Shown here: positions 8,212 to 10,604 of the stretch, one piece after another | How the letters are laid out: every line of letters starts with the position of its first letter | Numbering within the stretch: the stretch's first letter is position 1 | Assembly: GCF_001592045.1 (NCBI RefSeq) | Contig: NZ_BCWB01000012.1 | Location: 1 to 44,686, forward strand | Length of the DNA: 44,686 bases | Direction: 5' to 3' | From: Thermobifida fusca NBRC 14071 = JCM 3263 | GTDB lineage: Bacteria; Actinomycetota; Actinomycetes; Streptosporangiales; Streptosporangiaceae | Notes under the pieces: generated by a model | Told to the model about the DNA's origin: nothing | The model's input: only the letters and a program-made list of their open reading frames with translations | Databases searched by the model: none | Program-made: the position numbers and the translations under genes

Positions 8212-8631
8212 CACCTTAAAGCCCGGTCTTATCCCTTTTCTTCACATCTGCGCACACAGAATTGTTCCGCGACACGGAATTCCCTGCCAGAGTCATCCGG
8301 ATAAGTCGTCTCTGAGAAATCGGTGTCGGCCAGGGCCGCTGCACTGTCGCCGGACGTGCCTGCCCGCCGAGACACCTCGGCTCGACGGGCACCCCACCAG
8401 GGGGCCTTGTCCGTGGATGCCCTGGATACTCTGGACGTGGCACAGGCTTGCCGTTCCCTGGCTCAGGCTGTGACCGCGGCACTGGTCAGCTCTGCTGCAC
8501 CCCACGTGCCGAGGGATGCCCGGTCGGTGCTGGACGATTGCGCAGAGAAGCCGACCGTCGCTCGGCGTTACGGGACCCCGGTGCCGCTGGCAGGGAAAGC
8601 GGGCACAGAGCGCCTCGCGGCGCTGCCGTGC
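8212..8631. other. Gap without a recognisable gene
   Basis: About 420 bp. One + strand open frame (8323-8721) crosses it but runs into the 3' end of the convergent membrane-protein gene, has no ribosome site and resembles nothing. I see no RNA gene or repeat. Confidence 0.4.
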
Positions 8632-9603
8632 TTACGCCACTTTCCGGTACCGGGAAGCGCCGATCGTGCCGCGGAGTTCCGCGCGTTCGACATCGGTCGC
8701 CGCGCCGATGTACCCGGCTAGCTCAACCAGGTCCTCTTGGCTGGCCCCTTCCCAGACGACCTGTACCCGGGTGGAGATGTCGAGGGGGATGTGGAGGACT
8801 GGACCGCTGAACGGGTCGCTGAGCACGGTGAAGCCGTCGTATTCGATGACCTGGTAGATCCTGTGGTCGTCAGGCTGCCCCTTGTACCGCCCGTTCGTCT
8901 CCTCAGGACGGTACACGTAGAGCTGGATCGGCTGGGCGCTCGCCTTCTTGACGTGCCGGTATTCCACGAGGACGTCTTGCTGCTCCGGGTGGGGCTCCAC
9001 GCTGGTGAGCGTCCAGTCGGGGTGGCGGAGCACCGGGATGGCGGAATACCGGTCGTATTCAGCGCGCAGCACAGTCTGCGTCACCTGGCTCTCCGTGACA
9101 ACCCCGCCGATGAGGGTGGCGAACGTGATCCCGGTGAGGATCATCGGCACTGTCCTGCGCTTGTGCAGGCTGGCAGCCACCAGGCAGACCACCACCCCGC
9201 AGGCCGCGGAAAGCCCTGTCGTCCACCACACGCTGAGGACCGTGCCGTACACCGCGGCCCGCACGATCGCATATCCCAGGGGGACGACCAGCGCGAAGGT
9301 GGTGAACACGGCGCTTCGCGGCACGCCGAGGCTGTGCAGGGTCTGGCGCAGCACTCCCCACAGCCCGATGAGGGCCAGGAGTCCCGCAAGCCCAAGGGCG
9401 ATGACGGCTCCAGGGGCTAACGGGAAAGAGTCGTCCGGCCATAACAGTTCAACCGGCGCGAAGACGGTGGTGAGCGCCGCCACCGCCATCACTGCGGAGG
9501 CGAGTGCGAACACAAGGGCACCTACCGTGCGCCGCCACCACACCGGCGGGTGCTTCGTGGCGCTTCGGTCAGCGACAGGGGCGGGGGATGGAGAAACAGT
9601 CAT
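8632..9603 (-). CDS. Five-TM membrane protein, unknown, under a CelR-type operator
   Basis: This is a 323-residue protein. Hydrophobic segments at roughly 26-50, 62-84, 98-120, 126-146 and 151-170 give five membrane helices, followed by a soluble C-terminal domain of about 150 residues beginning near ESQVTQTVLRAEYDRYS. I do not recognise the family. The open frame extends to 10116, but ATG 9603 is the natural start because everything upstream is low complexity and the operator and -10 box lie there. The 14-bp CelR cellulase operator sits 23 bp before the start, so expression may respond to cellobiose. Export, sensing or cell-surface roles are all open. Confidence 0.72.
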   Translation of the reverse strand: MTVSPSPAPVADRSATKHPPVWWRRTVGALVFALASAVMAVAALTTVFAPVELLWPDDSFPLAPGAVIALGLAGLLALIGLWGVLRQTLHSLGVPRSAVFTTFALVVPLGYAIVRAAVYGTVLSVWWTTGLSAACGVVVCLVAASLHKRRTVPMILTGITFATLIGGVVTESQVTQTVLRAEYDRYSAIPVLRHPDWTLTSVEPHPEQQDVLVEYRHVKKASAQPIQLYVYRPEETNGRYKGQPDDHRIYQVIEYDGFTVLSDPFSGPVLHIPLDISTRVQVVWEGASQEDLVELAGYIGAATDVERAELRGTIGASRYRKVA

Positions 9604-10097
9604 GGTCGGTGGTCCAATCACTCTTTGGGAGCGCTCCCACAATGTAGACCATTTCTCTCGGAAATAATGCGCTGTTACTCCATCCCCAGGTGTGATGTTT
9701 CCGGCAGCCCCGCCGCGGATCCGCAGTACCACCGCACCAATCTGGTGCGTATCCCCACAATGGCGTGCGACGTACCGGACCCCAGAATTCCTCGACGTGG
9801 CGGTGAGTGCGCGCTGTCCGACCCCTGCACGCCGGAAATCCCGCGCGGGCAGCGCACCCGTCAGGTGTGCCGGACATGGCCGCCGCCGGCGGTTTCCAGC
9901 GCGTGACCGCGTTTTCCTCTTCTTCCGCTTCCGGACTACCCAGGCCGACGGAGACCCGCTTTTATCCCCGAGAATCGTAGGAGCTTTCGGCCGTCTCCTC
10001 AGGTTCTGATCACTTCGGATACCACGAAATCCCCATTGTTGCATGGGAAGGCAATTCTCTGCCGGGCAGGGGTGTTCCATGGGCGTAGTCTCACCCC
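9604..10097. other. Divergent regulatory region
   Basis: This gap of about 490 bp lies between the five-TM gene (-) and the DinB-like gene (+). It holds the CelR-type operator and a -10 box near the left edge and a possible TAGTCT -10 box (10086-10091) seven bases before ATG 10098, suggesting that the DinB-like transcript is leaderless. The middle 400 bp show no gene. Confidence 0.45.
9626..9639 (-). promoter_or_regulatory. CelR-type operator, perfect 14-bp palindrome
   Basis: TGGGAGCGCTCCCA is a perfect palindrome and identical to the inverted repeat bound by CelR, the LacI-family repressor of Thermobifida fusca cellulase genes, released by cellobiose (established knowledge). On the - strand a TACATT -10 box (9646-9641) lies two bases upstream, so the operator covers the expected transcription start of the five-TM gene. 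That position suits repression. Confidence 0.85.
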
Positions 10098-10604
10098 ATG
10101 ACCGGTACTGCCCCACGCGGCGATGTGCGCCCGCCGACCATCCACGCCGATGAGAAGACCACCCTGCTCGCTTTTCTCGACTATCTACGGGAATCGATCA
10201 CCGCGAAATTAGCGGGACTGTCGGACGAGCAGGCCCGCACCCCTGGAGTGCCGTCCGGCACCAGCTTGCTGTGGCTGATCAAACATCTCACCGCGGTAGA
10301 GCACGACTGGGTCATGTGGGCTTACCGCGGTGAGACAGGTCCACGACGGGAACGTCAGGTGCGGATCACCGCGGACGACACCGTGGCCCAAGCGGTGGCC
10401 GCGTATCGGGAGATGGCGCAGCGCACTACGGAGATCGCATTGGCCTGTGACGACCTCCACCGTCCCGGCGTGCGGTCGCTGCGCGAGCACGGCCCCGCGC
10501 CCTCGCTGCGCTGGGTGCTGGTGCACCTGGTAGAGGAGACGGCCCGCCACGCCGGGCACGCTGACATCCTCCGCGAGCAGATCGACGGCGCGGTTGGCCG
10601 CTGA
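10098..10604 (+). CDS. DinB/DUF664-family protein
   Basis: This 168-residue four-helix-bundle protein of the DinB superfamily has the expected metal-binding histidines: His63 and/or His69 in IKHLTAVEHDW, and His151/His154 in RHAGHADILRE near the C-terminus. Members include mycothiol- or bacillithiol-dependent transferases and many uncharacterised proteins. The genes near it give no pathway. A TAGTCT box seven bases before the ATG suggests a leaderless mRNA. Confidence 0.83.
   Translation: MTGTAPRGDVRPPTIHADEKTTLLAFLDYLRESITAKLAGLSDEQARTPGVPSGTSLLWLIKHLTAVEHDWVMWAYRGETGPRRERQVRITADDTVAQAVAAYREMAQRTTEIALACDDLHRPGVRSLREHGPAPSLRWVLVHLVEETARHAGHADILREQIDGAVGR

Follow-up and report, generated by a model that had tools for sequence, protein, structure and literature searches.

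A CelR-type operator at a membrane-protein gene in Thermobifida: conservation within the genus and possible role of the product

Thermobifida fusca serves as a model of cellulose breakdown under aerobic conditions, and the repressor known for its cellulases is CelR. In the available text of the papers on this protein, CelR/CebR is described as a repressor that acts at the 14-bp palindrome considered here (PMC3377646, PMC4697097, PMC5332605), and cellobiose is described as the signal that releases it (PMC3377646, PMC4697097). According to the available part of PMC3377646, the only tested T. fusca site is that of celE. The same part of that paper includes kinases and regulators among the predicted CelR targets of other actinobacteria, so that non-enzyme targets would not be unprecedented, and it reports that some actinobacteria have several close CelR homologues, with variant palindromes upstream of similar operons.

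Operator and promoter region of the membrane-protein gene

The window analysed here is the whole stretch of T. fusca DNA, 44,686 nt in length; its features are given in Table 1. The palindrome TGGGAGCGCTCCCA occurs in the window as a single perfect copy. With up to three mismatches allowed, four matches were found versus 5.47 expected by chance, so only the perfect copy is informative. A perfect CelR operator had been claimed by the sequence-only reading, and the exact 14-mer was confirmed at its place. That reading had also placed the operator over the expected transcription start of the gene. The -10-like hexamer TACATT ends one base ahead of the operator and, if used as a -10 element, would put the start inside it; against this, a sigma-70 consensus scan of positions 8300-10200 reported no promoter, and a start at this place is putative.

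Table 1. Positions of the features discussed (window numbering unless a contig or locus is named)
Feature	Position	Strand	Basis
Membrane-protein gene of 323 codons (product 323 aa; ATG at 9603, stop at 8632), probable target of the operator	8632..9603	-	ORF, orthologues
About five predicted membrane helices (residues 28-172), N-terminus predicted inside	9088..9522	-	Hydropathy, charge
C-terminal domain (residues 172-323), predicted outside, with strands and helices	8635..9090	-	Topology, low-confidence model
Perfect 14-bp CelR/CebR palindrome (operator)	9626..9639	.	Scan and invariance in 4/4 genus orthologues
Putative -10 hexamer TACATT	9641..9646	-	Read from the sequence, inferred
Short conserved upstream block TCACA	9691..9695	-	Invariant in the four-sequence alignment
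Divergent neighbour gene (168 aa), unlikely target	10098..10604	+	ORF list; gene order in G001
Probable structured RNA of about 390 nt	G000:C38:79735-80164 (L152:1587-2016)	-	Promoter, fold, hairpin, conservation

The genus set comprised T. fusca (G000), Thermobifida cellulosilytica TB100 (G001), G002 and G003, which are all of the genus genomes among the matches listed. Orthologues of the membrane protein were found in all three of the other genomes, with 53, 46 and 42% identity over the alignment. The perfect operator precedes the ATG in all four, by 22 nt in T. fusca and by 32, 23 and 23 nt in the others. When the upstream and leader regions were aligned, all 14 operator columns were invariant, compared with 29 of the 131 other ungapped columns, among which no invariant run exceeded five columns. 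At the place of TACATT the sequence is TAGATT in G003 and G001; the counterpart in G002, TAGCAT, lies 10 nt from the operator instead of one. Some 50 nt upstream of the operator, the four orthologous promoters all keep the block TCACA unchanged. A -10-like hexamer of the form TAnnnT was also sought at a fixed distance from all operators, for which 44 of the 48 perfect sites of the genus set were used (all but L077, L087, L095 and L098; L048 and L102 were oriented to the neighbouring gene, not to the structured RNA); no offset between -40 and 0 exceeded three of the 44 contexts.

Gene order is kept in the four genomes: one flank of the membrane-protein gene always has the divergent gene, and the opposite flank has a conserved pair of small genes. 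Identity to the T. fusca counterparts is 82-93% for the small-gene pair and for the next gene past the divergent one, and 67-81% for the divergent gene; set against the 42-53% of the membrane protein, these values show that it evolves faster than its neighbours. In G001 a gene of 510 aa, kinase-like by eye, lies between the divergent gene and the operator, and the operator was assigned to the membrane-protein gene for this reason. Kinase-like genes (by eye) adjoin the membrane-protein gene in G001 (L033:7742-9274) and an array of homologues in G291 (L142:6337-8175); these are two cases only. In G002 a partial second copy, resembling the membrane-helix part, lies directly upstream of the orthologue (L034:9335-9676).

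The CelR regulon in the genus and homologues elsewhere

A genome-wide scan for the 14-mer, which the sequence-only reading had suggested, was run on the T. fusca genome (3,643,897 bases, 82 contigs) with the reversed pattern of the 14-mer as the control. Eleven perfect copies were found, versus none of the control; with up to two mismatches there were 53 matches, the 11 perfect ones included, versus 14 of the control. G001, G002 and G003 have 13, 12 and 12 perfect copies, respectively, and the control is absent from each. For the 48 perfect sites of the four genomes, neighbouring genes were called by a simple script and the proteins were clustered. Nine site sets are common to all four genomes and cover 36 of the 48 sites. 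Eight of these sets are gene targets (cebE, two GH6, two GH9, GH48, LPMO and the membrane protein) and the ninth is a non-coding element. The other twelve sites belong to an MFS transporter gene (three), a GH5+CBM2 gene (two), another GH5 gene (two), a SARP-like regulator gene (two), a xylanase-like gene (one) and a flavoprotein-like gene (one), and one lies inside a called gene of G002 (L098).

A Pfam check of the regulon genes, covering the T. fusca members, confirmed GH6 (two), GH9 (two), GH48, GH5+CBM2, LPMO_10, the solute-binding protein, MFS and LacI; the second GH5, SARP, xylanase and flavoprotein genes were named by eye. Cel9A and the solved E4 cellulase of T. fusca show, by eye, a single difference over 605 aligned residues, on which the assignment of the genome to T. 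fusca is based. T. fusca has a celR-type LacI gene (L103:4100-5092, minus strand; Pfam LacI and Peripla_BP_3), which is the last of a run consisting of cebE, two permease-like genes, one glucosidase-like gene and the LacI-type gene itself; within this run the Pfam check was confined to the first and last genes.

Some further sites may be recorded here. The perfect site before the MFS transporter gene (G000:C1:54516, L039; also L071 and L086) is present in three of the four genomes, G002 being the exception. The SARP-like regulator gene, of 656 aa and named by eye, has a perfect site approximately 100 nt upstream in G003 and G001 (L076, L088); this site is absent from the 11 T. fusca sites. The LPMO promoter has a second palindrome, of 16 bp, which lies between the LPMO gene and a divergent regulator-like gene and precedes the CelR site by 19-20 nt (L044:5102-5117; also L073, L084 and L097). 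This palindrome is perfect in G000 and G001 and has one pair off in G003 and G002.

The perfect site in all four genomes, in the company of the cellulase, LPMO and cebE genes, indicates by comparative genomics that the membrane-protein gene is very probably a core CelR target. Of the eight gene targets common to the four genomes, seven come from families whose part in cellulose use is known; the remaining one is this membrane protein, which matches no curated family and is as such a direct candidate for deletion.

Three other accounts of the site were weighed. It could be read here by another LacI-family regulator instead of CelR, for which the close CelR homologues and variant palindromes reported in the available part of PMC3377646 would give room; since the cellulase genes of four genomes have a site identical to it in every letter, we consider this quite improbable. 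The operator could serve the divergent gene, which diverges from the same intergenic region; its start is approximately 460 nt from the operator, however, and in G001, where the 510-aa gene intervenes, the membrane-protein gene stays 23 nt from the operator, so that this target was rejected as very improbable. A chance match, with which the unenriched window at up to three mismatches would agree, is dismissed because the perfect site is retained in four of four genomes, at one and the same place in the promoter, within DNA that has otherwise diverged.

In the loci covered outside the genus, the association of operator and gene was not seen. G026, a genome of another genus, has 11 perfect sites and a GH48 gene; its orthologue is 36% identical over the alignment, and its 3.6-kb locus holds no site within three mismatches. 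In each of six further genomes there are one or two perfect sites; G075, which is among the six, additionally has one match of the reversed control, and little can therefore be read into single sites outside the genus. The membrane protein was found in nine of 250 family genomes (five strong and four weak matches), versus 145 of 250 for GH48; its gene is therefore no general companion of cellulolysis, and a role drawn from co-occurrence with cellulolysis was set aside. With a broader profile, homologues were found in 37 of 297 genomes of the order, the five close ones included, and some genomes have several copies.

Upstream of 20 of the 44 listed matches outside the genus and G026 (21,620 bases), no site with up to two mismatches was found; two of these 20 stretches hold a three-mismatch site. 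Fifteen longer loci (L035-L038 and L141-L151) contain three two-mismatch matches, in L037, L142 and L145, none of which is directly before a homologue. The absence of the site at the distant homologues covered and in the G026 locus suggests that the family was recruited into the CelR regulon within the genus, or was lost from it elsewhere. Eleven distant-homologue loci, viewed by eye, have no shared neighbour beyond those of near relatives, and no role could be drawn from gene partners. Tandem arrays of distant homologues are present in L141:5084-8825 (G314) and L142:2696-5997 (G291); CelR-like sites with up to two mismatches are absent from L141, and L142 has one two-mismatch match 3.5 kb from the array.

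Topology, structure and possible role of the membrane protein

Hydropathy analysis gave nine overlapping segments, which were merged by eye into five helices with peaks at residues 30-48, 67-85, 98-116, 128-146 and 151-169. A low-confidence model has four helices in the membrane region, one of which is long enough for two. Lysine and arginine charges number four on the N-terminal tail, three on the loop after helix 4 and one on that after helix 2; the two remaining loops have no such charge. Since positive charge is highest on the tail and on the loop after helix 4, the N-terminus is predicted to lie inside and the C-terminal domain of approximately 150 residues outside. Three distant homologues have a Cys pair within the C-terminal domain, which agrees with this location and does not prove it.

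Searches of the 323-aa protein against Pfam and NCBIfam returned nothing above the curated cut-offs. Phage_holin_2 reached 19.2 bits (Pfam cut-off 32) over residues 22-89 only and 7TMR-DISM reached 9.1 bits (cut-off 29). The protein is therefore no recognised hydrolase or sugar transporter. These results bear out the sequence-only reading in its description of a five-helix protein (the helices being merged by eye) that is neither a glycoside hydrolase nor a known sugar transporter. Its further suggestion, a member of the regulon such as a cell-surface protein, is well supported for the regulon by the sites in all four genus genomes; a place at the surface fits the predicted outer C-terminal domain, and a sensor, which that reading also named, is one of the roles weighed below.

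Two structure models were obtained, with mean pLDDT values of 52 and 41 and two sequences per alignment. Foldseek gave no match at E ≤ 0.001, the best being 1vr8 (E of 4.5e-3), which is also a weak sequence-profile match (E of 0.34 and 0.86). In a second look at the Foldseek candidates with VIA-align, the C-terminal domains of RseB and MucB came top, with Z scores of 8.2-8.5 over 88-95 residues, values that rest on a low-confidence model and are common without kinship. Other structural matches to the outer domain were 1vr8 (Z of 7.1), the Tse3-Tsi3 complex (Z up to 6.9), BT_1490 and PsbP, and STAT chains matched the helical part (VIA-align, Z up to 7.4); the STAT and Tse3-Tsi3 matches were set aside. 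Lauroyl acyltransferase chains 5kn7 and 5knk (E of 0.00037 and 0.00043, then 0.023 and 0.071) and HPr-like proteins (profile E of 0.43-0.44) were judged to be chance matches.

For the role of the protein our best guess, offered tentatively, is an accessory function on the envelope side, exerted through the outer domain during cellulase secretion and cellodextrin uptake; a sensor ranks second and a transporter third. As a sensor of cellodextrins or of envelope stress, the protein would bind a ligand or partner with its outer domain and signal across the membrane, perhaps in the manner of RseB/MucB, whose C-terminal domains are the best second-look matches. This reading is doubtful: the model is poor (mean pLDDT 52) and a Z score near 8 can reflect a common arrangement, no sigma or anti-sigma gene was seen beside the 11 distant-homologue loci (by eye, each neighbour being judged on its first 70 residues), and no cytoplasmic signalling domain was matched in Pfam. 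An unrecognised transporter, or an export channel for cellodextrins or secreted proteins, would suit the approximately five membrane helices and an operator that is the same as that of a sugar-binding protein gene; as no transporter family was matched, we regard it as improbable.

The arrangement found at this gene is the one that the published account of CelR calls for, and we infer the following course of events. The 14-mer is very probably a genuine operator of the LacI-family repressor CelR, which in the absence of cellobiose would sit over the transcription start and block the gene. Cellobiose produced by the cellulases would release CelR, and the gene would be turned on together with the cellulases, the LPMO and the cebE-to-celR run. 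The product, with its approximately five helices, N-terminus inside and C-terminal domain outside as predicted, may then serve the cell envelope with that outer domain while cellulases are secreted and cellodextrins are taken up.

Non-coding element and comparison with described systems

The ninth site set common to the four genomes lies in a probable structured RNA (Table 1). Its T. fusca site (G000:C38:80107-80120) had been considered as the promoter site of a FAD-oxidase gene; this was dropped, as the site is part of a conserved non-coding element. The element is also present in L153, L154 and L155 and in part in L156; DNA identity to T. fusca is 88-89% in the genus, all four genomes having it, and G044 has it in part (81% over 99 nt). 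Some match was found in nine of 120 relatives, of which the four beyond the genus and G044 are short and weak. The promoter TTGACA-18-AATAAT has 11 of 12 consensus bases (one match versus 0.1 expected), and the palindrome starts 15 bases past the last -10 base. When the five genomes are compared, 25 of the 30 columns in the promoter are invariant, as are all 14 in the operator, versus seven of 20 columns just upstream.

The region after the palindrome folds 6.4 standard deviations better than shuffled sequences, and the element has a terminator-like hairpin, one of two found versus 0.8 expected. The consensus fold has 128 pairs, nine of them changed on both sides; the overall covariation term is unfavourable (+4.53), and in G044 many pairs are disrupted by mismatches or gaps. 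In G000, G001 and G003 three hairpins have the tip GGTGC-GTGCGG-GCGCC in common; two of these end in GCACC in G002, and G044 has one hairpin with the stem changed to GACGC/GCGTC. No Rfam match to the element was found at the gathering thresholds. A covariance model of the first 104 positions matched seven of 345 genomes of the order, two of them weakly (G365 and G236); these two were judged false. By eye they show no resemblance beyond the CelR-type site, which at the matched place is perfect in G236 and has one mismatch in G365. Coding in this stretch was viewed through the ORF list only, in which short ORFs exist. As the palindrome also forms a hairpin within the fold, it could belong to the RNA structure, serve as an operator or do both.

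It is possible, and we put it forward with reserve, that a conserved non-enzymatic arm exists in the CelR regulon of Thermobifida, consisting of this envelope protein and a structured RNA of approximately 390 nt, both undescribed. If so, the two together would adjust the envelope and gene expression at the onset of cellulose digestion. The RNA, if real and controlled by CelR, would add an RNA layer to a system that is otherwise described, in the available parts of the literature, as a repressor and its operators.

The outer domain of the membrane protein may have a fold similar to that of the RseB/MucB C-terminal domain, to judge from the low-confidence model; RseB and MucB are periplasmic regulators without membrane helices of the kind predicted here. 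Among the matches listed in the literature on CelR/CebR targets or RNAs, the available text presents neither the membrane-protein gene nor the RNA as a CelR target, and the available parts of PMC5746737 and PMC4948018 hold nothing on the membrane-protein gene. We consider the membrane protein to be a new member of the known CelR regulon and not a new kind of system; an earlier listing is possible. The Streptomyces CebR regulon has the same 14-bp consensus, at which cellulase and cello-oligosaccharide uptake genes are repressed, according to the available part of PMC5332605; the portion of the S. scabies gene table available from that paper contains no such membrane protein. From the other members of the T. 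fusca CelR regulon the present target differs in being a membrane protein that is neither an enzyme nor a known part of a transporter, and it resembles them in having the identical 14-bp operator in its promoter region, in the same genome, conserved in four genomes of the genus.
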